Source: Vasconcelosia minhoensis LEGE 07310 (lineage in GTDB: Bacteria; Cyanobacteriota; Cyanobacteriia; Phormidesmidales; Phormidesmidaceae). Taken from it: 64,000 nucleotides of DNA. The notes below the pieces were generated by a model that saw only the letters and a program-made list of their open reading frames with translations, ran no database searches and had not been told where the DNA came from. Positions within the stretch are counted from its first letter, which is position 1, and each line of letters opens with the position of its first letter. Of this stretch, positions 45,823-63,943 are shown piece by piece. The position numbers and the translations under genes are program-made. The stretch covers positions 1 through 64,000 of the forward strand of contig NZ_JADEXG010000015.1 in NCBI RefSeq assembly GCF_015207255.1, given 5' to 3'.

Positions 45823-48750
45823 CTAGGGACTGGAGGCTGATTTGATAGATTTCAAGAGCAGGTTCTGCATCTGGTCAACATATTGCCGGGCAAGCTGTTG
45901 AATGGTATCTGCGCGATAGAAATTTCGTGAATATTCGATTTCTAGTTCCATCACGCCTTCGCTGATTGAGAAAAAGAATTCCAGCAGGGTAGTGCGCTTT
46001 TGTTCCGGCAGGGCTAAACGGCGATCGCGGTCGGCTTGGATAAACTCAAAGACCTCAGAGCCGGGGAGGGAGCGATTGCCCAGATAGTTTGCCCTGACCG
46101 GGGTAAGCTTTTCATCGGGGTAGAGATGGTCGGGCAGCAGTTCCCCAATCCAGTCGTAGGTGACGCCATTCATGGGCAGAGCGGCAAACTGCTGCCCAAT
46201 TTGGGCAACTAAGGTCTGCCAATGATCGCCGGAACTCACCTGGAGACCCACTGGAAAATTGACGGCGAAGTTACCGAAGCTCTGCCAGAATACCTGACCC
46301 TGGCCCAGGTCTCGGCCATGACTGCGATGGCTGACCACAATCCATTCTTTTTTTGACCAGTCAGCAAGCAGCTGGTAAAGAGGCGCAAGCAATAGCCAAT
46401 AGACATTGCACCGATAGCGCTGCTTGGCGTCCTGAAGTAAGCGATTCGTTTCAGCCGGCGTTAGCTGAATCTGCTCGCTCGCGGTAGAGGCTTCGATATT
46501 TGCCCCTTTGACATAGTCGAACGGGGGTTGAAAGGCGGATGCCTCGGAGGGAAACTGGGCCTGCCAATAGTCGATGTGGCTGTTCAATTCGCCCTGCTGC
46601 TCAGCGGTCTGCAGCCGTTGGATGTAGCTGAGATAGTTCGCCGATACCGTCCCATCAGGAGCCGGACCCTCCGACAGCAGCCGATCGTAGGTTTGCCAGA
46701 GATCGCGAAATAGGACGCTGCCCGCCAGCAAATCGGCAATCATGTGGTGGGCTACTAAGGTAATGTCGTAGCAGGTTTCATGCACCTTGACGACGACTAA
46801 CGCAAACAGGGGCCACCGATCTAGGCGCAGCTGCTGAAGGGTCTGTTGAATTTTGAATTCGACGTAGCGATCGCGATCTTCGGGTGCAAAGCAGCTACCG
46901 TCGCAGAGGGCAATCTCTAAGGGCGGCGGCTGGAGCAGCTGCTGCCGCCATTGGCCATCCTGCATTTCAAACACCATGCGCAGAGCCGAATGTCGAGCAA
47001 TCACCTGGTTGAAGGCCAGACTGAATCGGCCCATATCCAGCGCCTTTTGGTAGCGAAATCGGCTACAGCCTGCCCACTGGTAGGGCGGGTCAAAGTAGGT
47101 GACAATCCAGCGCTGAGCCGGGGCCAGCGGAAAGGATGTAGCGGCTGACGGCGCATCCGCTATGACAGGCTGAGGGGCGACAGGCTGAGGGGCTAGCAGC
47201 GCTTTGCGATCGAGCTTGCCGTTGTGATTTTTGGGCAGCCCAGGCAGCCACTCGATCCGCTGGGGAATCATATAGTGGGGCAGCTTCTCAGCCAGAAACT
47301 GTTTCAGCTCTCGGGCGGCGATGGTTTGGCCCGCAAGCCAGGCAACCAGACGCTTTTGCCCAGCTTCATAATCCATCGCGAGGACAGCGGCTTCCTGAAC
47401 GGCAGGATGGAGGATGAGCGCATTTTCAATCTCGCCTAGCTCTACCCGGAAGCCGCGAATTTTTACCTGGTGGTCGATTCGACCGTGATATTCAAAGTTG
47501 CCGTCGGGCAGTTCTTTCGCCAGGTCACCAGAGCGGTAAAGGGTCTCGCCCGGAATGTCGGCAAACGGGTTGGGCTGAAACGTAGACGCCGTGCGTTCGG
47601 GGTCTTTAAGATAGCCCTTCGCCAGCTGCACGCCGCCGATCCAGAGTTCGCCCAGCTCACCGGGCGGCACTGGCTGCATCTGCGCGTCTAAGATGCGGAT
47701 ATAGACATTGTCAATGGCTTTGCCAATGGGGATACTGCGCTCTGGCCGAGATTCGATCAGGTGAGCCGTGACATCGATTGAGGCTTCGGTCGGACCGTAA
47801 AGATTAGCCAGACCCGTCTTTAATCCATGGCGATCGATCCACTGTCGAATAAAGTCGGCGGGCAGCGCTTCGCCGCTAAAGATCAGCCAGCGCAGGTCAG
47901 GAAAGCGCCAGGACTGGTTCGCTAGGGCATTGATGAACTCGCCAAACAGTGAAGGCACAAAATGCATCACCTGAATGCGCTGGGTCTGCATCCATCGAGC
48001 GAACTCCCAGGGGTTGAGGACGATTTCTCTCGCTACCGGACAGATGCTTGCCCCTTCCATCAGGGTCCAGAAGAGTTCCCAGACCGAAATGTCAAAGCAA
48101 AAAGAGGTTTTCTGCGCCACGCGATCGCCCGGTCGCAGCTGAAAAGTTTTCTGCATCCAGTCCAGTCGGTTCATATAGCCCCGGTGGCTGAGCATCACCC
48201 CCTTGGGCCGCCCGGTCGAGCCTGAGGTGTATAGAACGGTCATCAGATCGTCTGGATTAGGCTCAATCGCTGGTCCCGTATCAGCACTTTTAGACCAGAT
48301 TTCTGGAAAGATTTGCGCGATCGCGCCTGCAAGCTCAAGGGGAGTTCCTATATCCAGAAATAACAGCTGTTGCAGGGACAGCGGTGGCACCAGACAGGTG
48401 GACAACGCAGCCGCAACCTCTTGCTCGCTCAGCAGAATTTGAATCTCGGCATGGTCAAGAATGTAGCGAATGCGCTCAGCCGGGTAGTCCGGGTCTAAAG
48501 GTACATATGCCCCACCCGCCTTGAGAATGCCCAGGATGCCAATCACCATCAGCGGGCCGCGCTGGGTCATGATGCCGACCCGCGAGTTGGGCTCGACGCC
48601 CTGGCTGCGCAGGTAGTGAGCCACCTGGTTGGAGCGGCGGTCGAGCTGGGCATAGGTTACATGCTGACTGTTTTGTAAGACCGCGATCGCGTCGGGGGTC
48701 TGTTGGGCCTGCTCAACGATCTTCAGGTAGGGAACTTCAAGTCTTGACAT
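45823..48750 (-). CDS. NRPS: serine-activating adenylation domain plus C-terminal condensation domain
   Basis: A 975-residue protein with architecture A-C and no carrier domain. The A domain (about 10-520) has all core motifs: LYTSGSTGRPKG, FDISVWELFW, NLYGPTEAS, YRSGDLAKELPDG, RIDHQVKIRGFRVELGEIE and NGKLDRKAL. Aligned by eye to GrsA/EntF positions, the pocket is D-I-W-H-I-S-L-I-D(-K), which matches the serine code. The C domain (about 545-960) has HHMIAD near 669, so the catalytic His is present. With no PCP in cis, the A domain must charge another protein's carrier, most simply the PCP that ends the preceding PKS protein. The last C domain could release the product. It is between that PKS gene (95 bp) and the MFS gene (12 bp). 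Confidence 0.93.
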   Translation of the reverse strand: MSRLEVPYLKIVEQAQQTPDAIAVLQNSQHVTYAQLDRRSNQVAHYLRSQGVEPNSRVGIMTQRGPLMVIGILGILKAGGAYVPLDPDYPAERIRYILDHAEIQILLSEQEVAAALSTCLVPPLSLQQLLFLDIGTPLELAGAIAQIFPEIWSKSADTGPAIEPNPDDLMTVLYTSGSTGRPKGVMLSHRGYMNRLDWMQKTFQLRPGDRVAQKTSFCFDISVWELFWTLMEGASICPVAREIVLNPWEFARWMQTQRIQVMHFVPSLFGEFINALANQSWRFPDLRWLIFSGEALPADFIRQWIDRHGLKTGLANLYGPTEASIDVTAHLIESRPERSIPIGKAIDNVYIRILDAQMQPVPPGELGELWIGGVQLAKGYLKDPERTASTFQPNPFADIPGETLYRSGDLAKELPDGNFEYHGRIDHQVKIRGFRVELGEIENALILHPAVQEAAVLAMDYEAGQKRLVAWLAGQTIAARELKQFLAEKLPHYMIPQRIEWLPGLPKNHNGKLDRKALLAPQPVAPQPVIADAPSAATSFPLAPAQRWIVTYFDPPYQWAGCSRFRYQKALDMGRFSLAFNQVIARHSALRMVFEMQDGQWRQQLLQPPPLEIALCDGSCFAPEDRDRYVEFKIQQTLQQLRLDRWPLFALVVVKVHETCYDITLVAHHMIADLLAGSVLFRDLWQTYDRLLSEGPAPDGTVSANYLSYIQRLQTAEQQGELNSHIDYWQAQFPSEASAFQPPFDYVKGANIEASTASEQIQLTPAETNRLLQDAKQRYRCNVYWLLLAPLYQLLADWSKKEWIVVSHRSHGRDLGQGQVFWQSFGNFAVNFPVGLQVSSGDHWQTLVAQIGQQFAALPMNGVTYDWIGELLPDHLYPDEKLTPVRANYLGNRSLPGSEVFEFIQADRDRRLALPEQKRTTLLEFFFSISEGVMELEIEYSRNFYRADTIQQLARQYVDQMQNLLLKSIKSASSP

Positions 48751-48845: not shown

Positions 48846-51800
48846 TTAACCCACTACAGCCGTTGTTGCCTGTAGACTCTGCCCCATCTCTTGCAAACTG
48901 CGACAGCTGAGCAGTGCTTTACGATTGACAGAACCCCACTGTTTCTCTAGCTGGGTGACGATACGGATGCGCTCAAGCGAATCGAATCCCAGGTCGGCTT
49001 CTAAATCGAGATTCAGATCTTGCAAGCCGATCGGCGTATGACAAATGTCGGCGGCTACCTGTTGTAGGAGGGCAGCAATCTCCCCGTCAATCGGTTCTTC
49101 CATCTGGGGGGCTACGGTCGGCGGGCTGACCTCTGCCAGAGCCCTAAGCTCGGCCTGGTAGGCCTGCATCAGCTGATCGATAGACGCGGCGGCGAAGAAG
49201 CTGCTGTCATAGCTGGCAAACAGATGCAGCCGATCGTCAAAAATCTCCTGTAAAACATCGAGAATACCCGCCGCGTTGATGCCCCCCGCCTGATAGTCGG
49301 TTACGCTGAGCGGCCCGTACTGAGTTTGCAGCGGCAGATGTCCGGTGTAGGGAAGGTAAACATTCGACTTAATCGCCTCATGAAAAATGGAGAGGCTATA
49401 GGATGGCACTTGGCCCGACTCTAAGGGGAGATGATCGCGGAAGGTCAGCCCCATTTTGTAAGTTTGCGCCCGGTCTAGACCGCTGGTTAAGGGACCTTGA
49501 ATCGCCTGCTGTACCCGCTGTAAAAGACACTCCCAGGACTCCTCGGGCTGAACGCGCTCAAAGCTCAGGGCCAGATTCTGGGCAAAGCTGCTGACCTGCG
49601 TAGAGGCATCTACCTGAGGATAAACGCGGCCGCCAGTCGGCATTTGCAAAATCATCTGGGCGCTTTCGCGATCGCACTGACTCAGCGCCCGCAGAAAAGC
49701 GCCGGTCAGCAACGTATTCAACGGCAGCCGCCATTCCCGGGTTCGCGCGATCAGCTGCGTCGTAATCCGGCGGTCGAGCTGATAGGGCTGGCTGTGATAC
49801 TGCGGCAGGGCAAAGCGAAAGGGCTGGCTGTCGGGATTCCAAGAGTAGGTGGTCTGTCCCTGCTGATGGATATACTCGTTCAGGGCCTGGTTCGCGCTTG
49901 GCTCGGGTGCGGCGTTCATGGCGGTGACCGTAGCGGCATAGTCCGCTAGGCTTGTGGCCTCAGGCAGGTCAGGCACTTGCCCCTGACAGCGAGCGTGATA
50001 CAGTTCCAAGAATTCGTGCAGAATAATGTGATTGCCCAGGCCGTCGGAGATGATGTGCTCATTGCCTAAAAAGAGCTGATAAACAGAGTCCTGGAGCTGC
50101 ATCACCGAGAACTCGTGCAGCGGCCACTGGGTCAACGACCAGGCGTAGTTGAGACAGCGCTGACGTTCTTCTACCAGAGAACTGGCCTGGGCTTCTGGAC
50201 TGAGCGGACGCAGATCGGTAAAGGCAATCTCTGGCAGCGACGGCTGGGTTAATACCTCCAGACGGAAGTCGCGGAAGCGCTCGGCCTGGGGCGGGATGTG
50301 GAAGCGCGATCGCAGCATCGGATGGCGCTCAATCAGGTCCTGCCAGCTCTGCTGAGCAATCTCTAGGTCAAATGGGCCTTCTAGCCGTACGGTGGCAAAT
50401 AGACTGTTGGAATTGACTAGCCAGTGACCAATCAGGTGAAAGTACTGGCCGTGCAAAAGCTCGACGGGCTGGGCGTCTGTTGTCTCGATCGAAGTCTCGA
50501 TTATAGGTGACAGTGAAGCTGGTAAGGGTTCTGGCTCAGACTGCCCCTGCCAGGGTTCCAACAGCTCAATCACCGCCTGCAAATGGGGTAGCTGGAGCAG
50601 GTCACGTAAGGAAACCTCTTGCTGGAAAGCCTGCTGGGCTGCGGTGGGAATCAGCTTCATCAGACCGTTCATCAGCTGCGTCAGCATGATTGAATCGAGA
50701 CCTAGTTCACCTTCCAAGGTTTGGGTTAATCCAATCTGCGACGGCTGTAACCCGGTGATTTTTGCTGTAAGTGACAAAACGCGCTGTTCTAGGTCCTGGG
50801 CTTCCAAATCGGTCGAATTGTCTGTGGTGGCTTGGCTCAGCAGCTCAGCGGCAGACGTGGCCTCAGCCGGTAAACGGGTAGGCAGCTCGACCCAAAACCG
50901 CTGGCGCTGGAACGGATAGGTCGGCAGGGATAACCGCTGGCGTGGATAGTCCCGGTCAAATCCGCGCCAGTCAATCTCGACTCCCTGAGTATTTAGAACC
51001 GCAGCACTCTCCAGTAGGGTTGTCCAATCTGGCTGTCCGCTACGCAGAGACGGGAGCCAGCTGCCGGCCAGACCGAGATGGTTGTTTCCCTGATTGATTA
51101 AGTTAGGGTCAGGACCCACTTCAACAAAGATCTGACAGCCCTGTCGCTGGAGGGTTTCCATGGCGACTTCGAGGGACGCTGACGACTGTAGCTGCTGGCT
51201 CCAATATTGACGCTGAGAGAATTCTTGATCACTGGCAATCTGGCCGGTGAGACTCGATACTAACCCTCGCTGAAGCGGACGGTAGCCGATCTCGGCGGCG
51301 CGGCGCTCAAAAGCGAGCATTGCCTCAGCAGCGTTCTCGGCGGACTGCTGCATTAACTGGCCCCGCTCGGCTGCTAGCAGAAGCCCTGCTTCTAGGCTGT
51401 AAAGCCCGGCAGCACAGGCAGCGGCATATTCACCCACGCCCTGGCCAAAGACCCAGTCGGGCTGGACCCCCCAGGACTGCCAGAGCTGGGAAAGGGCGTA
51501 CTCCACTGCGAACAGAGCGGGCTGAGCGTAGGCCGGTTGATCAATTAGCCGAGCCTGCTCTGGCGAGGTGGGATAGAGAATGGCTAAGAGGGGGATGGAG
51601 AGGCGCGATCGCAAAATCTCCTCACAGTCCAACAGTACCTGTCTAAAGGTGGGCTGGCTCGCATAGAGCTGACGGCCCTGCTGGACCAGCTGTGAGCCTT
51701 CCCCAGTGAACAGAAACGCGACCTTAGGCAGCTGGGATTCTGTCCCACACCAAAGCTCTGGACTGGCCTGACCGGCGCTGAAGTCGGCAAGCTGCTGGCT

Positions 51801-53414
51801 GAGCTGTTCTGCGGAGCTGGCAACCGCGCTGAGCCGATGCTTAAACCGGGCTCGGGTGGTATTGGCTGTAAAGCAGAGGTCGGCCAGGTTTGTATCTGTA
51901 TGGGTGAGCAGGTAGAGCTCATAGCGGCTGGCGAGCTGCCGCAGGGCGGTTTCACTTTTTGCAGAAAGGGTCAGCAGATGCAGCGGTCGATCGACTTCAG
52001 CCGCAGCTAGGGGCTGGGAAGTCGCCTCTTCGACCACGATATGAGCGTTGGTACCGCTGACGCCAAAACCGCTGAGGCCAGCCCGGCGCGGCTGATTGTC
52101 AGCTGGCCAGGGGGTGAGCTGAGTGGGAATAGCAATCGGCAGCCGCGCCCAGGGAATATGAGGGTTTGGCTGGTTAAAGTTCAGGTGGGGAGGGAGGGTC
52201 TGATGCTGGAGCGAGAGCACTAGCTTAATGAGGCCAGCGATCCCAGCGGCTGATTCCAGATGGCCTAGGTTAGTCTTGGCAGCGCCGACAAAAAGCGGCT
52301 GTTCTGTCGATCGATTCCGGCAAAGTTCCGCCGCTAAAGCTTCAATCTCGATTGGGTCGCCCAGAGCCGTACCGGTGCCGTGGGCTTCAACATAGCTGAT
52401 CTGCTCTGCCTGCACGCCACTGTTGGCCAGCGCCTGACGAATCACAGCCTGCTGGGCCGGACCGTTGGGCACCGTCAGGCCGCTGCTGGGGCCGTCCTGA
52501 TTGACGGCAGAACCGCGAATTAGAGCTAAGATGGGGTCGCCCTGCGCGATCGCGTCGCTCAGACGCTTCAGCACCACCAGCCCGCAGCCTTCACCCCGGG
52601 CAAAGCCATCGGCCTCAGCATCAAAGGTTTTGCAGCGGCCGTCTCGGGCTAGCATCCGCGCCCGACTAGTGGCCACGAACCCATCCGGCGATAGAGCCAG
52701 ATTCACCCCGCCCGCCAGCGCCAGATCGCATTCCCGTTGGCGCAGGCTCTGGCAGGCCAGATGCACCGTCACCAGCGAAGACGAGCAGGCCGTATCCACC
52801 GCCATACTCGGCCCTTGCAACCCTAGCGTATAGGACAGCCGCCCCGCCGCCGCGTTCAGATGATTGCCGGTGGTGCTGTAGGCGTCGATTGCCGTCAGGT
52901 CGCCTGCCCGCGTTTGCAGCTGCAAGTAGTCGTTAACGGTAATGCCGATGAAGACGCCGGTACGGCTGCCGCGCAGCTTTTCCGGCTGGAGTCCGGCATG
53001 TTCAATCGCTTCCCAGCCGACTTCGAGCAGCAGCCGCTGCTGCGGGTCGAGATGGATGGCTTCGCGCGGCGGAATGCCGAAGAAAGCCGCGTCAAACTGG
53101 TCTACGTTACGCAGGAAGCCGCCCTTAGAAACATATAGCTTGCCCGGCTGATCGGGGTCATCCGAGTAGAGGTTTGCCAAATCCCAGCCGCGCTCAGCCG
53201 GGACCCCCGTTGTCGCATCTATTCCACGGCGCAGCAGCGACCAAAACATTTCGGGGCTGTTGACGTTGCCGGGAAACCGACAGCCCATCCCAACTACTGC
53301 GAGCGGTTCGGTCTGTGCCTGCTCCAGGGACGTAAGCTTGGCCCTGAGCTCTCGCATGGCTATCAGCGCACTCTTCAGCCGCTCTTTTTGATCGCTGGAC
53401 GGGGAGGTATTCAT
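48846..53414 (-). CDS. Hybrid PKS/NRPS: KS-AT*-ACP-C-PCP (AT decayed)
   Basis: A 1522-residue megasynthase. KS (about 37-465) has the Cys in VDTACSSSLV, EAHGTGTALG and AKTNLGHLES. The AT region (about 565-800) is degenerate: FTGEGSQ replaces FTGQGSQ, GQGVGE replaces GHSxGE (the nucleophile Ser is lost), and the segment with the HAFH motif is deleted. ACP (about 870-950) keeps its Ser in ELGLDSIML near 906. The condensation domain (about 985-1420) has EHIISDG near 1121, keeping the catalytic second His. PCP (about 1440-1515) has LGFDSLERI near 1476. No A domain is present. Without KR/DH the third extension should stay a beta-ketone. The C domain then needs an aminoacyl-PCP charged by the A domain of the next protein. 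Confidence 0.93.
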   Translation of the reverse strand: MNTSPSSDQKERLKSALIAMRELRAKLTSLEQAQTEPLAVVGMGCRFPGNVNSPEMFWSLLRRGIDATTGVPAERGWDLANLYSDDPDQPGKLYVSKGGFLRNVDQFDAAFFGIPPREAIHLDPQQRLLLEVGWEAIEHAGLQPEKLRGSRTGVFIGITVNDYLQLQTRAGDLTAIDAYSTTGNHLNAAAGRLSYTLGLQGPSMAVDTACSSSLVTVHLACQSLRQRECDLALAGGVNLALSPDGFVATSRARMLARDGRCKTFDAEADGFARGEGCGLVVLKRLSDAIAQGDPILALIRGSAVNQDGPSSGLTVPNGPAQQAVIRQALANSGVQAEQISYVEAHGTGTALGDPIEIEALAAELCRNRSTEQPLFVGAAKTNLGHLESAAGIAGLIKLVLSLQHQTLPPHLNFNQPNPHIPWARLPIAIPTQLTPWPADNQPRRAGLSGFGVSGTNAHIVVEEATSQPLAAAEVDRPLHLLTLSAKSETALRQLASRYELYLLTHTDTNLADLCFTANTTRARFKHRLSAVASSAEQLSQQLADFSAGQASPELWCGTESQLPKVAFLFTGEGSQLVQQGRQLYASQPTFRQVLLDCEEILRSRLSIPLLAILYPTSPEQARLIDQPAYAQPALFAVEYALSQLWQSWGVQPDWVFGQGVGEYAAACAAGLYSLEAGLLLAAERGQLMQQSAENAAEAMLAFERRAAEIGYRPLQRGLVSSLTGQIASDQEFSQRQYWSQQLQSSASLEVAMETLQRQGCQIFVEVGPDPNLINQGNNHLGLAGSWLPSLRSGQPDWTTLLESAAVLNTQGVEIDWRGFDRDYPRQRLSLPTYPFQRQRFWVELPTRLPAEATSAAELLSQATTDNSTDLEAQDLEQRVLSLTAKITGLQPSQIGLTQTLEGELGLDSIMLTQLMNGLMKLIPTAAQQAFQQEVSLRDLLQLPHLQAVIELLEPWQGQSEPEPLPASLSPIIETSIETTDAQPVELLHGQYFHLIGHWLVNSNSLFATVRLEGPFDLEIAQQSWQDLIERHPMLRSRFHIPPQAERFRDFRLEVLTQPSLPEIAFTDLRPLSPEAQASSLVEERQRCLNYAWSLTQWPLHEFSVMQLQDSVYQLFLGNEHIISDGLGNHIILHEFLELYHARCQGQVPDLPEATSLADYAATVTAMNAAPEPSANQALNEYIHQQGQTTYSWNPDSQPFRFALPQYHSQPYQLDRRITTQLIARTREWRLPLNTLLTGAFLRALSQCDRESAQMILQMPTGGRVYPQVDASTQVSSFAQNLALSFERVQPEESWECLLQRVQQAIQGPLTSGLDRAQTYKMGLTFRDHLPLESGQVPSYSLSIFHEAIKSNVYLPYTGHLPLQTQYGPLSVTDYQAGGINAAGILDVLQEIFDDRLHLFASYDSSFFAAASIDQLMQAYQAELRALAEVSPPTVAPQMEEPIDGEIAALLQQVAADICHTPIGLQDLNLDLEADLGFDSLERIRIVTQLEKQWGSVNRKALLSCRSLQEMGQSLQATTAVVG

Positions 53415-53490
53415 GGCGTTGTTCAGGGAATAATGGGTTCAACAGAGATGAAGCTAAACGGGACAGTCCGCAGCCTGGGCTATAGCGAGA

Positions 53491-56400
53491 TTAGGGAGAA
53501 CCGACAGCCGCTAGCTCCTGGTCTAACAGCGCGGCCAGATCGTCTTCGGAAAGGGCTTCCAGTTCGGTAGCAGGCTCGGGAACTTCAGCTGCTGCGGCAG
53601 ATTCAACTGGCTCAATTTCAAGCACTGCTTGAGCCAGATAGTCTGCCAGCGTCTCGAGATTGGGATAGTTAAATGCCAGCGTAGAGCTCAGGGTTTTTCC
53701 CAGTCCGGCTTCTAACCGACCTTTCAGATCGACCGCCATCAGTGAGTCCAGACCCAGCTCGGTGAAACCCTGGCGTAGGCTGAGAGTTTCTGTCGGAGGC
53801 AGCCCGAGAACCTGGGCGACCTCTGCCTTGAGATAGGCAATCAGGTAGGCTTTACGCTGGGCCTGCGGTGTCGTGGTAAGACCTGCCAAAAAGTCTGAGG
53901 GGCCATGGTCGGATTGCTTTAGCTCGGCAGCTGGGGTGCCGAGATCGGCCAGCAGCGATCGCGCTCCTTTAATTTCATAAACTGACTTAAAGCGCGACCA
54001 GTCAACCCGAGCAGCGGTGATTTGGGCGGTTGCCTGGGACATCAGCATTCCCAGCAAATCCAGGGCGGTCTGGGGCTGCCAGGTCTCTATCCCAACCCGC
54101 TTGAGCAAAGCTTGAATCTCGTCAGAAGCCATACCGCCCTCAGCCCAGGGTCCCCAGTTGATGCTGAGCGCGGGCAGTCCTAGAGCGTGGCGGTGATGCG
54201 CGATCGCGTCCAAAAAGGCATTGCCAGCCGCATAGTGGCCCTGGCCAAAGGAACCCCAAATTGAAGCAATCGAAGAGAAACAAACAAACTGTTCCAGCGG
54301 CATTTTCTGAGATAGCTGCCGAGAGAGCTGATGCAGGTACCAGGTTCCCAACAGCTTAGGCCGCATGATGGTCTGTAGCTCAGCCTGGCTCATCTCAGCC
54401 AGCGGCTGTTCGGCCACCAGGCCCGCCGCGTGAAAAATGCCCTTCAGCGGCTGTGCCGAGCCTTGTAGCTGGGCAAAGGCCGCCGTCATCTGCTCCCAAT
54501 TGCTGACATCGGCCTGCAATACTTCAACCTGGGCACCTTTCGCTTCCAGGGCCTGAACCGCCTGCACGCGCTGAGCAACTTTGCTGTCAGCAGGTAGGTT
54601 CGGCCACTGCGATCGCGTCGGTAGCGCCGTCCGACCCAGCAGAGTCAGATGGGTAGCGCCCTGTTCAACCAGCCAGTGGGCCAGGCTCAGTCCCAGGCTG
54701 CCAAAGCCGCCGGTAATCAGATAGCGACTGTCGTTTTTGGGCTTAAAGGGAACCACGGCAGACCGTTGGGTAGGTGCCAGGCGAGCGGTATAGATTTGGC
54801 GATCGCGAACCGCTAAATAGTCTTCTGCCGCAGCAGTTTGCATTAGCCGCAGTACGATATCGGCCTGGGCCATTGGTGAGTTATCAGCGGGGTCCAGGTC
54901 AATTAGCCCGCCCCACAGCTCTGGGTGCTCCAGCGGTAGCACCCGACCTAGACCCCACAGAGGAGCCTGAGCCAGGGCGACAGGCCGTTCAGAAAGGGCT
55001 TGGGCTCCCTGAGTGGCTAGCCAAAGCCGAGGCGTTGCCGCCTGCTGCCGGACGGCCTGCACTAGCTGTAGGACACTGCCGCTGCCCAGTCGCTGAGCCG
55101 CTTCCATATCAGCCCAACTTTCTTCGGTCAGGTCTAAACTCCACAGATGAACGATGCCCTGACAGGGTTGGGCTGCCAGCAGCGACCGCAGCTGAGTCGA
55201 AAAGATCTCGGGCTCAGCCGGATTGAGCACTTGGCCAACCGTCTGAGGGGAGCGATAGGCATAGACGAGTTCGCAGGTTGTTCCCGGTTCGCTAAGGCGC
55301 TGGGCTAGGGCCTGACCGACGCCCTGCTGATCGGCAAAGATCAGCCAGTGGCCTGCTGTGGACTGATTTTCTGCTGCTTCAAATTCTGTTGGAACAATCT
55401 GCCACTGCACCTCGTAAAGTGCATCTGAGGCTGCGATTGGGCTGGAGAGTTCAGTAGGAGACTGGACTGGGGACTGAGCTGCCCAACGGGAATTTTCCGA
55501 CTTGACCCAGTAGCGGCTGCGCTGAAAGGGATAAGTTGGTAGGCTCACCCGCGATCGCGGAGTTGGCTCGACGGCTGCCCAGCGAATTGGGGTGCCCTGG
55601 GTCCAAAGCATGCCTAAGCTGGTGAGCATCTGCGTCCAGTCCGGCTGGCCCCGGCGCAGGGAAGGTAGCCAGGTACCGCTGCCCGGCGTCCGGCACTGTC
55701 GCCCCATCCCCAGCAGCACCGGATGCGGTCCCACTTCTAAGAACAGCTCGTAGCCCTGGTCGGCCAGCGTCTGCATAGCTTTGGCAAAATTGACGGAATG
55801 GCGCACCTGGCGTCGCCAGTAGTTGGGCTGGGTGACCTCATGGGTCACTATTTCGCCTGTGACGCTAGAAACGATTGGTACCTTAGGCGGCCTCAGAGCA
55901 ATGGCGGCGGCCTGCTGCTGAAACGCTGCCAGCATCGGCGTCATCAGCGGCGAATGAAACGCATGGGAGACATGTAGAGGGTGAACGTCGATGCCGTCCG
56001 CCTCAAGCTGTCTGAGCACTGACTGTACCGATTCTCCGACACCCGAGATAACCGTATTTTGAGGGCCGTTGATCGCCGCGATCGCAACCGCATCGCCATA
56101 GGGCGCGATTGCCTTGCTGACCTGTTCATAGCTCGCAATCACCGCCGCCATCTGCCCTCCAGCGGGTAGCGCCTGCATCAGGCGTCCGCGTTCGACAATC
56201 AGCTTCAGCCCGTCTTCCAGGCTATAAACTCCGGCCACACAGGCCGCCACATATTCACCAATGCTGTGGCCCAGCACAATATCTGGTTTCACGCCCCAGG
56301 ATCGCCACAGCTCAGAAAGGGCATACTCAATGGCAAAGAGAGCAGGCTGCGTATAGGCCGTCTGGTTGAGCGGCGAATGCCCTGTGGGTGGATAAATCAC

Positions 56401-58212
56401 ATCAAGAATGGACTGACCCAGCAGAGGTTGCAAAATGCGATCGCACTGTTCCAGCGTCTCTCGGAAAACCGGCTGAGTTTCGGAGAGCTGTCGCCCCATA
56501 TTCAGCGACTGAGAGCCCTGGCCGGTGAACAAAAAGGCGATTTTTGGCCGACCGGTTTCGGCGATTTGACGACAGACAATCGAAGGTGCTTGGGGAAATG
56601 CCTCCAGCTGTTGGCGTAGACCCTCGGCTGAATCTGCCACTGCTGCCAGGCGATGGTCATAGGCCGTGCGCCCCGTATTAGCCGTATAGCAAATATCTGC
56701 TAGGGATTGTTCTGGATGGGCCGACAGATGATGAACATAGGACTGCACTAGCTCGTTCAGGGCAGCTTCACTTTTGGCAGAGAGCGTCAGCAGCTGACTC
56801 TCGCGATCACAGGCAACCGGCTTCGGTTCGGGGGCTGCCTCCACTAGAAGATGGGCGTTGGTACCGCTAAACCCGAAGGAGCTCAGCCCGGCGATGTGCT
56901 TGTCATGCAGCGGCTGCCAGGGCGTGGGCTGGGTAGGAATCTGGATCGGCAGCTGCTCCCAGGGAATGTGAGGATTGGGAGTCTCAAAGTTGAGATGGGG
57001 AGGAATCTCCAGATGTTGCAGGGAAAGCACCAGCTTGATCAGTCCGGCGACGCCTGCCGCCGATTCCAAATGGCCGAAGTTGGTCTTCACCGACCCGACG
57101 ATTAGCGGGCGATCGGCAGGGCGATTGGCCCCAAACACCGCCCCTAAAGCTCTGAGCTCAATCGGGTCGCCGAGGGCAGTGCCGGTGCCGTGGGCCTCTA
57201 CGTAGCTCACCTCTTCGGGTTTTACGCCGCCATTCTCTAAAGCCCGGCGAATCACCGTCTGTTGAGAGGGGCCGTTTGGCACGGTCAGGCCGCCGCTGCG
57301 ACCGTCCTGATTCACCGCTGAGCCACGAATCACCGCCAGTATCCGGTCCCCATCGGCCTCAGCATCGCTTAGTCGCTTCAGCATCACCACGCCGCAGCCT
57401 TCGCCTCGGGCATAGCCATCGGCCTGGGCATCAAAAGTTTTGCAATGACCATCGGGGGCCAGCATTCGGGCCTGACATTCGTTGATGGTGCCGACCGGTG
57501 TGAGAATCAGATTGACCCCGGCTGCCATGGCCAGGTTACATTCTCGCGATCGCAAACTCTGACAGGCCAGATGTACCGACACCAGGGACGAAGAGCAGGC
57601 GGTATCGACCGCCATGCAGGGACCCTGAAAGCCAAAGGTATAGGCCAGCCGACCGGCGGTGACGCTAAAGGCATTCCCTGTCGCGGTGTGCGGGTCGATC
57701 AGGCTGAGCTCGGTGGCCAGCTGGAAGTAGTCCAGGTTCATAATCCCGACAAACAGGCCGGTCTGACTGTTGATCAGGCTTTGAGGCACGTAGCCCGCCT
57801 GCTCCAACGCTTCCCAGCCCACCTCCAGCAGCAGCCGCTGCTGGGGATCCATGCTGACTGCCTCGCGGGGAGAGATGCCAAAGAACAGCGGATCGAACTG
57901 GTCCACCTGGTCTAAATAGCCCCCGGCTCTGGCATACAGCTTTCCTGGCGTACCCGGTTCGGGATGGTAGACCTGAACCATCGACCAGCGGTCGTCAGGC
58001 GTTTGCCCAATCGCGTCAGTGCCGCTGTGCAACAGCTGCCAGAACTCGTCTAGCGTATTGCTCCCCGGGAAGCGACAGCCCATGCCGACAATGGCGATCG
58101 GTTCGACGCGATCGCGTTCGCTGGCCTCTAGCTTTGCCTGCATATCCTTGAGCGCAAGCAGGGCACGTTTAGTCGGGGAGAGGGCGGTTTTGGGGTCCTC
58201 AGTATGGCTCAT
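53491..58212 (-). CDS. PKS: KS-AT-KR-ACP with the only intact AT
   Basis: A 1573-residue type I PKS module. KS (about 37-460) has TACSSS near 206, EAHGTGTALG and VKTNFGHLES. AT (about 560-850) is complete: FTGQGSQ, GHSIGEY near 649 and HAFHSP near 751, the malonyl-CoA type signature. KR (about 1165-1380) has the NADPH motif GGFGSLG and Tyr in GHYAAGN near 1326; it lacks LDD and has a Trp eight residues before the Tyr, which marks an A-type ketoreductase (L-hydroxyl). ACP (about 1450-1530) has LGLDSLMAV near 1488. There is no DH or ER, so it should leave a beta-hydroxyl. It is in an operon with PKS genes on both sides. Confidence 0.95.
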   Translation of the reverse strand: MSHTEDPKTALSPTKRALLALKDMQAKLEASERDRVEPIAIVGMGCRFPGSNTLDEFWQLLHSGTDAIGQTPDDRWSMVQVYHPEPGTPGKLYARAGGYLDQVDQFDPLFFGISPREAVSMDPQQRLLLEVGWEALEQAGYVPQSLINSQTGLFVGIMNLDYFQLATELSLIDPHTATGNAFSVTAGRLAYTFGFQGPCMAVDTACSSSLVSVHLACQSLRSRECNLAMAAGVNLILTPVGTINECQARMLAPDGHCKTFDAQADGYARGEGCGVVMLKRLSDAEADGDRILAVIRGSAVNQDGRSGGLTVPNGPSQQTVIRRALENGGVKPEEVSYVEAHGTGTALGDPIELRALGAVFGANRPADRPLIVGSVKTNFGHLESAAGVAGLIKLVLSLQHLEIPPHLNFETPNPHIPWEQLPIQIPTQPTPWQPLHDKHIAGLSSFGFSGTNAHLLVEAAPEPKPVACDRESQLLTLSAKSEAALNELVQSYVHHLSAHPEQSLADICYTANTGRTAYDHRLAAVADSAEGLRQQLEAFPQAPSIVCRQIAETGRPKIAFLFTGQGSQSLNMGRQLSETQPVFRETLEQCDRILQPLLGQSILDVIYPPTGHSPLNQTAYTQPALFAIEYALSELWRSWGVKPDIVLGHSIGEYVAACVAGVYSLEDGLKLIVERGRLMQALPAGGQMAAVIASYEQVSKAIAPYGDAVAIAAINGPQNTVISGVGESVQSVLRQLEADGIDVHPLHVSHAFHSPLMTPMLAAFQQQAAAIALRPPKVPIVSSVTGEIVTHEVTQPNYWRRQVRHSVNFAKAMQTLADQGYELFLEVGPHPVLLGMGRQCRTPGSGTWLPSLRRGQPDWTQMLTSLGMLWTQGTPIRWAAVEPTPRSRVSLPTYPFQRSRYWVKSENSRWAAQSPVQSPTELSSPIAASDALYEVQWQIVPTEFEAAENQSTAGHWLIFADQQGVGQALAQRLSEPGTTCELVYAYRSPQTVGQVLNPAEPEIFSTQLRSLLAAQPCQGIVHLWSLDLTEESWADMEAAQRLGSGSVLQLVQAVRQQAATPRLWLATQGAQALSERPVALAQAPLWGLGRVLPLEHPELWGGLIDLDPADNSPMAQADIVLRLMQTAAAEDYLAVRDRQIYTARLAPTQRSAVVPFKPKNDSRYLITGGFGSLGLSLAHWLVEQGATHLTLLGRTALPTRSQWPNLPADSKVAQRVQAVQALEAKGAQVEVLQADVSNWEQMTAAFAQLQGSAQPLKGIFHAAGLVAEQPLAEMSQAELQTIMRPKLLGTWYLHQLSRQLSQKMPLEQFVCFSSIASIWGSFGQGHYAAGNAFLDAIAHHRHALGLPALSINWGPWAEGGMASDEIQALLKRVGIETWQPQTALDLLGMLMSQATAQITAARVDWSRFKSVYEIKGARSLLADLGTPAAELKQSDHGPSDFLAGLTTTPQAQRKAYLIAYLKAEVAQVLGLPPTETLSLRQGFTELGLDSLMAVDLKGRLEAGLGKTLSSTLAFNYPNLETLADYLAQAVLEIEPVESAAAAEVPEPATELEALSEDDLAALLDQELAAVGSP

Positions 58213-58252
58213 GATGACGATCTCTTCGGTGAGTAAACAGCAGACAAAAAGA

Positions 58253-61200
58253 TTAATAGCGGATGGCTTCTAGCGCGCTCAAAAGAAGAGATTCAGCCTC
58301 TTTTTCAGAAAGCGTTTCGACAGATTCACTCGACACCCCGATGGGCTGGGGGATTGGTGCTGAAACCGTCGGTGGGCTGGCAGCAGGTTCCTCCTCAGCC
58401 GGGAACAGCGTTTGCACTAGGTGGCCGCCCAGCGCATCCAGGGTGGGATAGTCAAACACCAGGGTGGAGGCTAGCGGCTGCCCTAAAGACTTTTGCAGAG
58501 TGTTGCGCAGCTCCACCGAAGTAAGCGAATCCATCCCCAGGTCAAAGAAACCCTGATGCAGGTCAAAGGAATAGGTCGGACTTAGCCTCAGTAGGGTTCT
58601 AAGCTGATCCTGGAGGTATTCAAACAGTCCGGCAGCGCGTTCATCTGCGGGCAGTGCTGCTAGCTGAGTGACAATTTCTGCGGCCGAGCTAGTATCGGTT
58701 TCTTCAGCAGTCACCAACTCTGACAGCAGCGGCGGCAGGGCTGGAGCCTGGGTCACAAACTGTTCCCACCGCACCGGCACCACGCCTACCTGGGCGGCGG
58801 GCTGCTGGAGCAGCTGATCTAGGGCCTGGAAGCCAGATTCGGGCGCGATCGCGTCCAGCCCCAGAGCCATCAGCCGCTGCTGTTCGCGTTCGCCCAGCCG
58901 GTCGGCCATACCACCGTCGGCCCAGCTGCCCCAGTTGACGCTGAGGCCGGGCAGCCCGCGCCCTTGGCGGTAGTGGGCTAGGCTGTCTAGAAAGCTGTTG
59001 GCCGCCGCGTAGTTGGCCTGGCCGGGGGAGCCCAGCATCGCCGCCACCGAGGAGAACAACATAAAGTGATCCAGGGAGAGATCCTGGGTGAGCTGGTGCA
59101 GATTCCAGGCCCCGGCGACTTTGGGAGCCATGACCCGATCGAACCGGATGGGGGTTTGCTGAATCAGCAGACCGTCATCAAGCAGTCCGGCAGCGTGGAA
59201 GATGCCCCGCAGGGGCGGCAGCGTGGCCTGAATTTCGGTCAGCACCCGAGCCAGGTCGCCCATGCGGGTGACGTCGCCCTGCAGGACGCGCACTGTAGGG
59301 TTGGGGTAGTCGGGGAGGACAGCAGTTTTGGGATCGCGGCGGCTGACCAGCACCAGATGCTTGGCTCCCTGGTCGATTAGGTGCTGGGTCAGCTGCTGGC
59401 CCAGACTGCCCAGCCCGCCCGTAATCAGATAGGTGGCGTTGGCCTTCAGGGCCAGCGGTGGGGACTGCTGGAGGGTAGTGCGGGTTAGGCGCGCGACCTG
59501 GCGCTGCTGACGGAATGCGATCGCGTCTCCCATCGGCGCTTGCAAATCCGACAGCAGCTGCTCGGCTTCTTGGGGTTGAGGGTCTGCGGCCAGGTCAATT
59601 AGGCCGCCCCAAATTTCCGGCTGCTCCAGGGCAATCGCCCGTCCCAGTCCCCAGAGCGGAGCCGCACCCACCTGGGCGACAGATGTCTCGACGGCCTGGG
59701 TGCCCCGGGTCACAAACCAGAGCTTACCGCCTACCGCGCCGAGGGATTCTGCCAGGCCCTGAGTCAGCATCAGGCCGGTCTTTACACCAACTGTCTGGGC
59801 GGTTTGCAGGGCGTCTGAGCTGCCTTCCTGGGGGATGTCTGCGCCCCAGAAATGAACGACGCCGCGCAGGGGCTCTCCTTGGCAAATCACCGCTTCACAC
59901 AGCTGCTGCCAGTCCTCAGAACGCTGGGGATTGATCTGCCAAGCTGAGCCCGTCAGCTGCAAAGTCTCCCCGACGCTGACCTGAGTGCAGGTATTGCCCT
60001 GCTGAACCAGCTGGCGGGCCAGACCGGCGGCGACACCGCCTCGATCGGCGAGCAAAAGCCATTGTCCGGTGCCATGACTGGCCGCTGCTTCGCGGCTGGC
60101 GACCGGCTGGGGCCGCCAGGCCACGCGGTAGAGCCAGTCCTGCCAGGCCGGGCGGGCCAGCTGCCGTAGCGCATCCCGCTGAATGCGTCTGACCTGGAGA
60201 TCTTGCAAGCGGGCCAGGCACTGTCCGGCCTGGTCGAATATATGCAGGTCGGCCCGGCGAATCGGCTGCCCGGCTTCGGCGGAATGAATTTTGCCGTGAA
60301 TCCAAATCGGCGATCGCACCGGCTGAAGCAGCTGGAGCTGGCCCACGCCGACCGGCAGGTAGGTCTCCTCACCGTCATCGGGCAGCGTCGCGAACAGCAG
60401 CTGAAAACCGGCATCCATCAGCACCGGATGGAGCTGATAGGCGTCTGCCGTATTGGCTGGGACGACTTCGGGTAGCTGTACCCGGGCCAGGGCCTGATTC
60501 CCCTGTCGCCAGAGCTGCTGGAGTCCCTGGAAGCTGTCGCCGTACTCCAGACCGCGCGATCGCAGCTGCTGATAGTAGGCTTGGCAATCCACCGACTCCG
60601 TACAGCCAGCCTGGGCCGCTGCCAAGGTCAGGGCTGGCGTTACTGCGGCAGCTGGGGCCAGGGTTCCAGCCGCGTGCTGCACCCAGTCTGTCTGGGATTC
60701 TGACGAAGCATCAGCGCTGACAATCCGAAACTCACCGGTCGGGGAAACAATCATTTGCACCTGCCGCCTGTCCGACTCGGGCAGCACCATCGCCGCTTGA
60801 ATCGAGACAGCTTTCAGGCAGCGCCCCGGGGTCTGGGCCGCTGCCGCTAGCGCCATTTCTAGAAAAGCCGCTCCCGGTAGAACGGCAAGCCCGCTGACCC
60901 GATGGCCACCGAGCCAGGGCTGCTGCGCCAGGCTGAGCTGCGCGGTAAAGACGGTGTCCTCAATCGCCAGCGGCACCGGCTGACCGATGAGAGGATGTCC
61001 TGGATTGGTTACAACTTTCGCCTTGGCTGTTTTCTCGACCCAGTAGCGATCTCGCTGCCAGGGAAACAGCGGCAGCGGCAGCACCCGGCAGCCCGGTGAG
61101 AACAGTCCTGCCCAGTGGATCGGCTGACCTTGCGTATAGAGCCGACCAAGAGCGGCCAGTAAAGTCGCTCGCTCAGGCTGGTCTGGCCGCAGGGAGTCCG

Positions 61201-63355
61201 TCGCGTCAGAAAGCTGGGGCGTCGGACTAATTTCGAGCAGGGTGGCATAGCCCGCTTCGGTGAGGGCCGCTAGCGTTGAGGCAAGATCGTTCGGTGCGGT
61301 GAGCGTCTGGCCCCAGTGAGCGGCTGTAATATCAGTCTCGGTAATCCAATCAGCAGCAGCAGTTGAAAACAGAGGCAGCTTAGCTGGGTAGAGTTCGTAA
61401 CGCCGTTCGATGGTGGTAATAAAGGCGTCGGGCGACTGGGCGCGATCGCATACCAGCCGCACCGCATCGCGCAGCCGCAGTCTGCCCGCCACATAGGCCG
61501 CAGCAATTTCTCCCAAACCGTGACCGACCACGGCCTTGGGCTCAATTCCCCAATGCCGCCAAAGGTGGGCCAGCGCGACCTGGATGGCAAAGATGGTAGG
61601 CTGCGCGATCGCGGCTTCTGGCAAACGAGACTGTTCCCGATCGGCGGTCAGCTCTGCTAGCAAAGACCAGTCGGCATAGTCGCGAATCAGCGCGTCGCAG
61701 TCCTGAATCATGCCGCGAAAAACGGGTTCGCTTTGCAAAAGGGTTTGTCCCATGCCCAGCCACTGAGCTCCGTCGCCCGTGAACACAAAGGCGACCTTGG
61801 GACTGCGCCGTTTAATCGGTGAATCTGGCACCTCGTCTAACCGGCTGAGCCGCTGTTGTAAATCCTCTAGTGAATGCGCGACAAGGGCTAGCCGGTACTT
61901 GTGATGGGTACGCCGGGCGCTAGCCGTATAGCAGAGATCTTTCAGAGAGACGTCGGGATTCTTCTTCAGCCAGTTCCCATAGGATTGCACTAAAGCCTGG
62001 AGCGCCTCTGGCGTATGGGCGGACAGCGGCAGTAAGTAAGCTTCTTTTGAGGGCGAAGAGCAGGGAATCTCAGCCGGGGCCTGCTCTAGCACCACGTGAG
62101 CGTTGGTGCCCGCGAACCCAAAGGCGCTAACTCCGGCCTTGGCCAGGCCCGAGGTTTTAGGCCAGAGAGTGAGCGCAGTCTGTACCCGCAGCGGCAGCTG
62201 CTCAAAGGGGATATGGGGATTCGCCTGTTGAAAATGGAGGCTAGGGGGAATCTGGCCGTGCTTCAGCGACAGCACTACCTTAATCAGGCTGGCGATGCCG
62301 GCCGCGGCTTCTAAATGACCGATGTTGCTCTTCACCGCGCCTAGGGCGCAGACCGAATCGGTGCGCCGCTGCTCCTTTAGCACTTCCGCCAGCGCCATCA
62401 CCTCAATCGGGTCGCCTAGCCCCGTCCCCGTGCCGTGGGCCTCAATGTAGCTGACCTCTCCCGGACAGACCTTCGCCTTAGTCAAAGCGTCTCGGACTAC
62501 CGCCGACTGGGAGGGACCGTAGGGCACCGTCAACCCCTTACTGCGACCGTCGTGGTTGATCGCACTGCCGCGAATGGTGGCATAGACCGGGTCGCCGTCG
62601 GCCAGGGCCTGGGAGAGCGGCTTGAGCACGACGCAGCCTGCCCCTTCGCTACGCACATAGCCGTTAGCGCTAGCGTCGAATGCCTTGCAGCGACCGTCGG
62701 GGGAGAGCGCCTTGAGCTTGGTCAGTCCCAGGGTGCCAATCGGCGAGAGAATAATGTTGACCCCCCCGGCTAGGGCCATGGTCGCTTCCTGATTCCAGAG
62801 GCTTTGGCAGGCCAGGTGAACAGCGACCAAAGAAGACGAACAGGCCGTATCCACGACCATGCTCGGCCCGCGCAGGTTGAACGAGTAGGAGAGCCGTCCG
62901 GCGACAATGTTTAAGGCATTGCCGGTGAGGTCATAGCCCTGGGGCTGGGTCGCATAGTCTGACTCCACTCGGCTGTAGTCATTAGTCGAAATGCCGATGA
63001 AGACACCTGTCTTTGACCCAGCCAGAGTTTCTCTCACCTGCCCGCCATCTTCCAGTGCCTCCCAGGCCACTTCCATCAGCAGCCGCTGCTGGGGATCCAT
63101 TGAGACTGCTTCCCGAGGAGAGATGCCAAACAGGTGCGGGTCAAAGCGATCGACCTGGTCCAGAAAGCCGCCGTAGCGAGAAGACATTTTACCTGGAACA
63201 TCCGCATCGGGGTGATACAGCTGAGAGATTTCCCAGCGGTCGGCGGGAACTTTAGTGATGGCATCGACGCCATTACAGAGTAGCTGCCAAAATTCCTGAG
63301 GATTAGGCGCTTGCGGGAAGCGACAGCCGATACCAGTGATTGCAATGGGTTCCAT
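58253..63355 (-). CDS. PKS: KS-AT*-DH-KR-ACP (AT decayed)
   Basis: A 1700-residue type I PKS module. KS (about 1-425) has TACSSS near 172, EAHGTGTGLG and VKSNIGHLEA. The AT region (about 525-740) is degenerate: FTGDGAQ replaces FTGQGSQ, GHGLGE replaces GHSxGE, and the small subdomain with HAFH is missing. DH (about 790-1040) keeps GHRVSGLAVLPG (HxxxGxxxxP) near 816 and the DxxxQ-type Asp in LMDAGFQ near 979. KR (about 1300-1520) has GGLGSLG, the LDD motif near 1392 (B-type) and Tyr in GQANYAAAN near 1448. ACP (about 1560-1640) has LGMDSLTSV. It should give a 2-enoyl product. ATG 63355 is preferred: the upstream frame is repeat text with a TTG start. Confidence 0.95.
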   Translation of the reverse strand: MEPIAITGIGCRFPQAPNPQEFWQLLCNGVDAITKVPADRWEISQLYHPDADVPGKMSSRYGGFLDQVDRFDPHLFGISPREAVSMDPQQRLLMEVAWEALEDGGQVRETLAGSKTGVFIGISTNDYSRVESDYATQPQGYDLTGNALNIVAGRLSYSFNLRGPSMVVDTACSSSLVAVHLACQSLWNQEATMALAGGVNIILSPIGTLGLTKLKALSPDGRCKAFDASANGYVRSEGAGCVVLKPLSQALADGDPVYATIRGSAINHDGRSKGLTVPYGPSQSAVVRDALTKAKVCPGEVSYIEAHGTGTGLGDPIEVMALAEVLKEQRRTDSVCALGAVKSNIGHLEAAAGIASLIKVVLSLKHGQIPPSLHFQQANPHIPFEQLPLRVQTALTLWPKTSGLAKAGVSAFGFAGTNAHVVLEQAPAEIPCSSPSKEAYLLPLSAHTPEALQALVQSYGNWLKKNPDVSLKDLCYTASARRTHHKYRLALVAHSLEDLQQRLSRLDEVPDSPIKRRSPKVAFVFTGDGAQWLGMGQTLLQSEPVFRGMIQDCDALIRDYADWSLLAELTADREQSRLPEAAIAQPTIFAIQVALAHLWRHWGIEPKAVVGHGLGEIAAAYVAGRLRLRDAVRLVCDRAQSPDAFITTIERRYELYPAKLPLFSTAAADWITETDITAAHWGQTLTAPNDLASTLAALTEAGYATLLEISPTPQLSDATDSLRPDQPERATLLAALGRLYTQGQPIHWAGLFSPGCRVLPLPLFPWQRDRYWVEKTAKAKVVTNPGHPLIGQPVPLAIEDTVFTAQLSLAQQPWLGGHRVSGLAVLPGAAFLEMALAAAAQTPGRCLKAVSIQAAMVLPESDRRQVQMIVSPTGEFRIVSADASSESQTDWVQHAAGTLAPAAAVTPALTLAAAQAGCTESVDCQAYYQQLRSRGLEYGDSFQGLQQLWRQGNQALARVQLPEVVPANTADAYQLHPVLMDAGFQLLFATLPDDGEETYLPVGVGQLQLLQPVRSPIWIHGKIHSAEAGQPIRRADLHIFDQAGQCLARLQDLQVRRIQRDALRQLARPAWQDWLYRVAWRPQPVASREAAASHGTGQWLLLADRGGVAAGLARQLVQQGNTCTQVSVGETLQLTGSAWQINPQRSEDWQQLCEAVICQGEPLRGVVHFWGADIPQEGSSDALQTAQTVGVKTGLMLTQGLAESLGAVGGKLWFVTRGTQAVETSVAQVGAAPLWGLGRAIALEQPEIWGGLIDLAADPQPQEAEQLLSDLQAPMGDAIAFRQQRQVARLTRTTLQQSPPLALKANATYLITGGLGSLGQQLTQHLIDQGAKHLVLVSRRDPKTAVLPDYPNPTVRVLQGDVTRMGDLARVLTEIQATLPPLRGIFHAAGLLDDGLLIQQTPIRFDRVMAPKVAGAWNLHQLTQDLSLDHFMLFSSVAAMLGSPGQANYAAANSFLDSLAHYRQGRGLPGLSVNWGSWADGGMADRLGEREQQRLMALGLDAIAPESGFQALDQLLQQPAAQVGVVPVRWEQFVTQAPALPPLLSELVTAEETDTSSAAEIVTQLAALPADERAAGLFEYLQDQLRTLLRLSPTYSFDLHQGFFDLGMDSLTSVELRNTLQKSLGQPLASTLVFDYPTLDALGGHLVQTLFPAEEEPAASPPTVSAPIPQPIGVSSESVETLSEKEAESLLLSALEAIRY

Positions 63356-63673
63356 GGGAGATTTTGCACAAGGGTGGGTAAGGGGAGTATGGGAGTGATG
63401 GGGTGTTGGGGTAAGGGAGTGAGTTTTAGGCAAAAGTAGATAAGTAGATCATCCTAATCATTTGTAGGACTATGTCATGCTGAGCATTGCGCTAGCGCAG
63501 CCATGCCCCTTGGGCTATAGCATTTCACGGGAGCCTTTACATATCAAGAGATTCCTCGGCTTCGTTGCTCCTCTGGAGCCGCTTCGCGAACGGAATGACA
63601 TCCTTGGGCTTAATTGTGCCGACCTACTTAGGTTATTTCGCAGATTTAGAGAATCACGCGAAATGACAAACTT
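63356..63673. repeat. 318-bp spacer with dispersed-repeat-like sequence
   Basis: Between the ACP gene and the first PKS gene. The left part is G-rich spacer repeat (GGTGGGTAAGGGGAGTATGG, GATGGGGTGTTGGGGTAAGG). The right part has a GCGCTAGCGC palindrome and TCAAGAGATTCCTCGGCTTC ... GCGAACGGAATGACATC, a form common in dispersed bacterial intergenic repeats. No CDS is supported. It may hold a promoter for the PKS operon, but none is clear. Confidence 0.5.
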
Positions 63674-63943
63674 TTAAGCCTGAGTTTCTTCGGCCAGACG
63701 CTCGGCTAGTTCGGCAATGGTGGGATAGTTAAAGATTAAAACCGGGTTGAACTCGTAACCCAGCCAGGTTTCTAACTGACCCAACATGCCCATCGCCTGG
63801 GCGGAGTCTAGGTCGTAGTTGTCAAAGGGTTCGTGGATGTCGATCTCGTCGGCGTCGTAGTCGAGACGCTGGGCCATTTGGGCGATCAGCCAGTCTTGAA
63901 TGGCTTCGGCGGAGTGGGATTGAGTGGTTTTAGTGGGATTCAT
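63674..63943 (-). CDS. Stand-alone acyl carrier protein (FAAL-partner type)
   Basis: An 89-residue acyl carrier protein. The phosphopantetheine Ser lies in YDLDSAQAMGMLGQLE near residue 47, and the rest is a typical four-helix ACP (WLGYEFNPVLIFNYPTIAEL). The DSAQA context and the LGYEF...IFNYPTIAEL end recall ACPs paired with fatty acyl-AMP ligases at the start of cyanobacterial lipopeptide or polyketide lines. It should carry the acyl starter to the first KS. The gene is upstream of the PKS operon on the same strand. A ligase gene would be expected further upstream, beyond the window edge. Confidence 0.88.
   Translation of the reverse strand: MNPTKTTQSHSAEAIQDWLIAQMAQRLDYDADEIDIHEPFDNYDLDSAQAMGMLGQLETWLGYEFNPVLIFNYPTIAELAERLAEETQA

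Follow-up and report, generated by a model that had tools for sequence, protein, structure and literature searches.

Two modules of a cyanobacterial PKS line with trimmed AT domains, and similar trimming in other cyanobacteria

How a PKS module whose own AT has lost its catalytic residues comes by an extender unit, or whether it extends the chain at all, is the question raised by three neighboring PKS genes of Vasconcelosia minhoensis LEGE 07310. The window, that is, the whole 64,000-nucleotide stretch of DNA that was analyzed, comprises the leading 64 kb of a contig 90.9 kb long, and its three PKS frames and all other features given below with window coordinates are on the minus strand. The order of the genes is hgl/PUFA-type genes, a free ACP, PKS1 to PKS3, an A-C protein and an MFS transporter.

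AT loss in PKS1 and PKS3

Based on open reading frames and Pfam, PKS1 (58253–63433) was assigned the domains KS - trimmed AT - DH - KR - ACP, PKS2 (53491–58212) the complete set KS - AT - KR - ACP, and PKS3 (48846–53414) the domains KS - trimmed AT - ACP - C - ACP. The open frame of PKS1 starts at a TTG at 63433, and position 63355, given as its end in the initial annotation, is an internal ATG. A free-standing ACP (63674–63940) is located between PKS1 and the hgl/PUFA-type genes, which are outside the window. The next gene after PKS3 encodes the A-C protein (45823–48750), which is without a carrier domain and has the C motif HHMIADL; it may place its amino acid on the last ACP of PKS3. In the condensation-type domain of PKS3 (49500–50402) the motif is EHIISDG.

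The trimmed ATs of PKS1 (61064–61795; FTGDGAQ, GHGLGE) and PKS3 (50910–51722; FTGEGSQ, GQGVGE) have both lost the oxyanion Gln, have Gly in place of the nucleophile Ser and are without ~70–80 residues of the small subdomain, including the HAFH motif, whereas the AT of PKS2 (55606–56535), a candidate shared AT, is intact (FTGQGSQ, GHSIGE, HAFHSP). In Pfam, the AT family (319 positions) was matched over positions 2–118 by PKS1, 2–134 by PKS3 and 2–311 by PKS2. A custom-built AT profile, used to map which segments PKS1 and PKS3 retain, was matched by them at ~1–122/131 and again from 206/213 to 288/301 (the C-terminal piece covers model positions 213–288 and 206–301 in the two remnants), and the middle of the profile, with the small subdomain and HAFH, is a gap in both. 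Both deletions are in frame. Sequence, Pfam and the custom profile thus bear out the motif losses that had been reported for PKS1 and PKS3, as well as the intact state of PKS2. The GHSxG nucleophile and catalytic His of an active malonyl/methylmalonyl AT are lacking in both proteins, whose ATs, judged by these residues, must be inactive.

No other active site has been lost and the PKS frames are open across 1522–1726 codons. The KS of PKS1 (62090–63367) and that of PKS3 (52035–53390) retain Cys-His-His, and in PKS1 the DH (60164–60997; HxxxGxxxxP), the KR (58916–59437; GGLGSLG and YxxxN) and the Ser of the ACP (58418–58618) are intact, in agreement with the initial annotation, which had described the remaining sites of the AT-damaged proteins as unharmed.

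The AT losses of PKS1 and PKS3 are independent events. In a tree of AT columns the PKS1 remnant groups with intact ATs (support 100), and a common origin of the two losses was ruled out by an AU test on the shared AT columns, which rejected the PKS1 and PKS3 remnants as one group (p = 0.001). The PKS1 remnant is also the more diverged, its N-terminal half having 43% identity to intact ATs versus 65% for PKS2. AlphaFold2 models of linker plus remnant reached a pLDDT of 86.4 and pTM of 0.85 for PKS3, and 79.7 and 0.80 for PKS1. The PKS3 remnant is predicted to have the fold of the AT large subdomain, and the best fold match of its model was the CurL KS-AT didomain of the curacin PKS (4mz0, 36% identical).

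Trimmed ATs in other cyanobacteria

A change of a cis-AT line to shared- or trans-AT use had been thought unusual; rarity of the trimming itself is not supported, since it is present in ~20 other cyanobacterial genomes. A trimmed-AT profile run against 386 genomes of the phylum gave short matches in at least 14 of them, the window's own included, and pooling this profile scan with a search of relatives, a search of 65 genomes of the order and a scan of named genomes gave 25 distinct trimmed ATs, two of which are those of the window. None of the 25 contains HAFH. At the nucleophile position they have Gly (15), Asn (five), Asp (two) or Ser (two), with one unread, versus Ser in 74/74 readable intact ATs. 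The breakpoints vary, from ~115–156 on the left and ~194–218 on the right of 303 positions. In the orthologs G124 and G203, whose KSs are 96% identical, the AT is whole in G203, and that of G124 is without the segment and has kept its Ser. The ortholog pair at L086:8835-13679 and L077, in which an in-frame AT deletion of ~80 residues stands against a whole AT, is a recent natural deletion.

Thirteen changes of the trimmed label are needed on the KS tree, whose trimmed rows exclude PKS1 (its KS, present there in truncated form, being labelled 'end'), and at least 10 of them are forced by supported branches; on the AT-column tree, nine are needed and at least seven forced. The recurrence of the pattern elsewhere in clean open frames argues strongly against assembly error as its cause. 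The losses are in frame, are accompanied by matching point changes and recur in independent genomes, so that the probability of a sequencing or assembly error is negligible. A close ortholog of the window cluster was found neither among 59 relatives or 65 genomes of the order nor, by the C-terminal part of PKS3, among 390 genomes of the class. No paper on recurrent AT trimming in cyanobacteria was found in the open literature, a scope outside which most subscription papers lie.

The ATs of the two modules had also been thought to be free of selection. Contrary to this, in four sets of close relatives (kin of the window genes, for which themselves no close ortholog was found in the genomes searched) dN/dS was 0.08–0.40 for the N-terminal half of the trimmed remnant and 0.20–0.54 for its C-terminal half, compared with 0.08–0.19 for the KS; in the G124/G203 set a trimmed AT is compared with an intact one. 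Selection on the AT remnants of kin is relaxed yet present, and modelling predicts a compact large subdomain for the PKS3 remnant. Neutral decay is unsupported in the kin, where dN/dS is mostly 0.1–0.4. At matched KS identity, the N-terminal half of trimmed ATs is 54% identical to intact ATs and that of intact ATs 64%, a difference of ~10 points, and an invariant core is present in the trimmed ATs across 19 sequences.

Two classes of trimmed modules

The His of the KS motif HGTGT is Gln or Asn in 10/24 trimmed-AT modules versus 0/76 intact ones (Fisher p = 1e-7, uncorrected for kinship), and with the module of G032 added the count is 11/25. Decarboxylative condensation requires this His, and its absence is the hallmark of non-elongating KS0 domains (PMC4661987; also PMC6855096); the His-less trimmed modules, going by this residue, probably do not extend the chain. 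Because close to half of the known trimmed modules have a KS without this His, trimming by itself does not imply trans-loading. Both PKS1 and PKS3 keep EAHGTGT and are in this respect unlike KS0 domains, which rules out that all trimmed modules are KS0 pass-through modules.

The two classes differ in further ways. All five KR-bearing trimmed modules have kept the KS His (0/11 His-less modules carry a KR versus 5/15 with His; Fisher p = 0.05), and an intact cis-AT is present in the examined neighborhood of 11/12 His-keeping loci versus 5/11 His-less ones (p = 0.03, uncorrected for kinship), an intact AT being absent from the stretch examined at 6/11 His-less loci. The loss of the His is restricted to about two clades. 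One His-less module, that of G334, is located at a PKS/NRPS junction like PKS3. One His-less group consists of FAAL-started clusters of Sphaerospermopsis, Anabaena and Trichormus that resemble the chlorosphaerolactylate/nocuolactylate type, and in the chlorosphaerolactylate-like clusters KS(His to Gln) - trimmed AT - ACP is the sole PKS module within the 20 kb examined. The C domains of these pathways are reported to link fatty acids with hydroxy acids (PMC12184294) and a C12 starter is listed for the chlorosphaerolactylate-type pathway (PMC11837247), which together imply that extension is absent in such pathways. A pass-through module fits the fatty acid-hydroxy acid chemistry of the FAAL-started clusters, whose link to the named products is drawn from cluster architecture and secondary sources.

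Supply of malonyl units and the role of the trimmed modules

Eight AT matches were identified in the whole assembly, and the sole stand-alone AT among them is FabD. A dedicated trans-acting AT gene near the cluster but outside the window had been named as a finding that would make this a normal trans-AT system; the search of the whole assembly gave none apart from FabD. Of 17 genomes searched in the same way, 16 carrying trimmed ATs and one being that of the intact ortholog, G203, 14 likewise have FabD as their sole stand-alone AT. Just past the right end of the window are genes for KS-AT-ACP, KR-DH, KS/CLF with FabA-type dehydratases, and PfaD, which are like those of PUFA synthases or heterocyst glycolipids, and farther right is a protein that, judged by its sequence, is 4'-phosphopantetheinyl-transferase-like. 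Possible malonyl donors are the AT of PKS2, which is the nearest, the AT of the PUFA/hgl (HglE)-type synthase, and FabD. The PUFA-synthase/heterocyst-glycolipid-like genes with PfaD to the right of the window (L009:1997-14949, contig C46) adjoin a type I PKS/NRPS line. In another genome, G047, the gene order is the same: hgl/PUFA-type genes, PfaD and an ACP are followed by a PKS1-like KS-AT-DH-KR-ACP module with an intact AT, from which it follows that this module position is an extending one there. The same genome has a second partial copy of the arrangement of hgl/PUFA-type genes and PKS1 homolog (L041, L042), and two KS proteins in which the post-AT linker follows the KS-AT linker without any intervening AT (L040:4883-11297).

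AT catalysis has been lost independently in the two cis-AT modules, and on balance we think it probable, by a small degree, that PKS1 extends with malonyl supplied in trans and that PKS3 works in either of two ways. In each module the segment with the small (ferredoxin-like) subdomain and the catalytic His was excised in frame and the nucleophile Ser changed to Gly, with the large subdomain kept, as predicted, as a folded scaffold between the KS and the remainder of the module. The ACP of PKS1 would receive malonyl in trans, most economically from the AT of PKS2 and otherwise from the hgl/PUFA-type synthase AT or FabD. Extension by PKS1 with malonyl supplied in this manner is most likely, and is favored because its KS, DH and KR are intact and because the homologous module of G047, in the same gene order, has a complete AT. 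PKS3 may either extend likewise or pass the chain from PKS2 to its condensation domain, and these appear about equally likely. Of the earlier proposal that a trimmed AT signifies trans-loading, the part that stands is supported by the absence of a dedicated trans-AT and the intact other sites of PKS1; as a general rule it is weakened by the many such KSs that have lost their His, and a trimmed AT can instead mean, as these sequences suggest, that the module stopped extending. It also counts against trans-loading that an intact AT nearby is to be expected in any multimodular cluster, and that the divergence of the PKS1 remnant fits slow decay of an unneeded module as well.

The principal competing explanation, which we regard as somewhat unlikely, is that the trimmed modules no longer extend, with each KS handing the chain to its own ACP without malonyl, in the manner of the KS0 modules of trans-AT lines, and PKS3 bridging PKS2 and the condensation domain. 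It draws on the replacement of the HGTGT His described above, on the chlorosphaerolactylate-like clusters with their single PKS module, and on PKS3 being without a reductive domain at a PKS/NRPS junction, as is the His-less module of G334. It draws also on G038, where KS-AT-ACP, KS-trimmed AT-KR-ACP and KS-no AT-DH-ACP stand in series (L039:8221-19791), as if three modules shared the processing of one extension. However, both window KSs retain Cys-His-His, the intact DH and KR of PKS1 would be left without a substrate unless the incoming chain already bears a beta-keto group, and the His loss is confined to about two clades, with the product link drawn from cluster resemblance. That the cluster is dying, its AT losses being early pseudogene formation, is very unlikely: two of three module ATs are inactive, the PKS1 remnant is strongly diverged and the close orthologs that would show conservation were not found in the searches made, but all frames are open, the remaining active sites are intact, the in-frame deletions share their structural boundary with ~20 other genomes, and the remnants of kin are under purifying selection. 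As a special case of the explanation that we prefer, the remnant may have turned into a site that actively docks a trans-acting AT, an early form of the AT-docking segments seen in trans-AT PKSs. Its large subdomain is retained, predicted to be folded and selected in kin, with an invariant core; yet a purely structural spacer fits equally well and the partner AT is hypothetical, and we consider docking unlikely. For the trimmed ATs as a whole, we tentatively propose, as a possibility short of an even chance, that they are a recurrent intermediate in which loading was ceded to a shared or housekeeping AT and the shell kept as an adaptor, with the His-less pass-through modules as a side branch. 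If this is true, the conversion of cis to trans has been caught at many stages.

Comparison with known systems

PKS1 and PKS3 have the KS, the linker and the AT large-subdomain fold of canonical cis-AT modules (CurL-type KS-AT), and their KSs group with cyanobacterial cis-AT KSs in best matches and in a KS tree built without trans-AT KS references. They differ from such modules in the absence of the nucleophile, oxyanion Gln, small subdomain and catalytic His from their ATs, and a functional AT within an extending module is found in PKS2 alone. If they extend the chain, they resemble trans-AT PKSs in depending on an external supply of the extender, but a discrete cluster AT is absent, the KSs have cis-AT kin and one module keeps its own AT; by the tests made, the window lines would not be classed as trans-AT PKSs. 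An AT fragment is present after the KS linker and is predicted by modelling to be folded; it would correspond to the AT-docking remnant of trans-AT PKSs if it bound a trans-acting AT. The KS His lost in 11/25 trimmed modules is a likeness to the KS0 modules and dehydrating bimodules of trans-AT PKSs, although the window modules keep the His and elsewhere its loss occurs in cis-AT lines alongside AT trimming.

How trans-AT lines arose from modules that carry an AT has long been debated, mostly on the basis of trees. Here, the same structural unit of the AT has been excised in several independent events, although the remaining ATs of these lines still look functional, and the stages available range from a retained Ser (G124) to an AT that is wholly absent (the G038 module), plus an ortholog pair differing by the deletion. 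They form a natural series for how assembly lines become dependent on a shared loader or make a module pass-through. For genome mining, the series is a warning that what is annotated as an AT in a PKS of a cyanobacterium can be an empty shell, and that a unit may or may not be added by modules of this kind.

Comparable modules are known from one described pathway and from look-alikes of another. In the pepstatin cluster, PepC is described as a PKS whose AT domain is truncated, and has been proposed to install malonyl units (PMC12081711); going by its description, it is alike in having KS - truncated AT - ACP and differs in being actinobacterial and the sole PKS of its cluster. Look-alikes of the chlorosphaerolactylate/nocuolactylate-type clusters (ClyF/NocQ; PMC12184294) share KS - trimmed AT - ACP before an NRPS and differ from the window in the change of the KS His to Gln and in belonging to a different, FAAL-started pathway. 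At two loci (L092:10202-15801 and L108:394-6222), KS(His to Gln) - trimmed AT - ACP is followed by a downstream SDR/KR-like gene, and at L092 the PKS module and that gene are separated by the gene of a protein of 635 aa whose sole Pfam match is a TubC_N docking domain.
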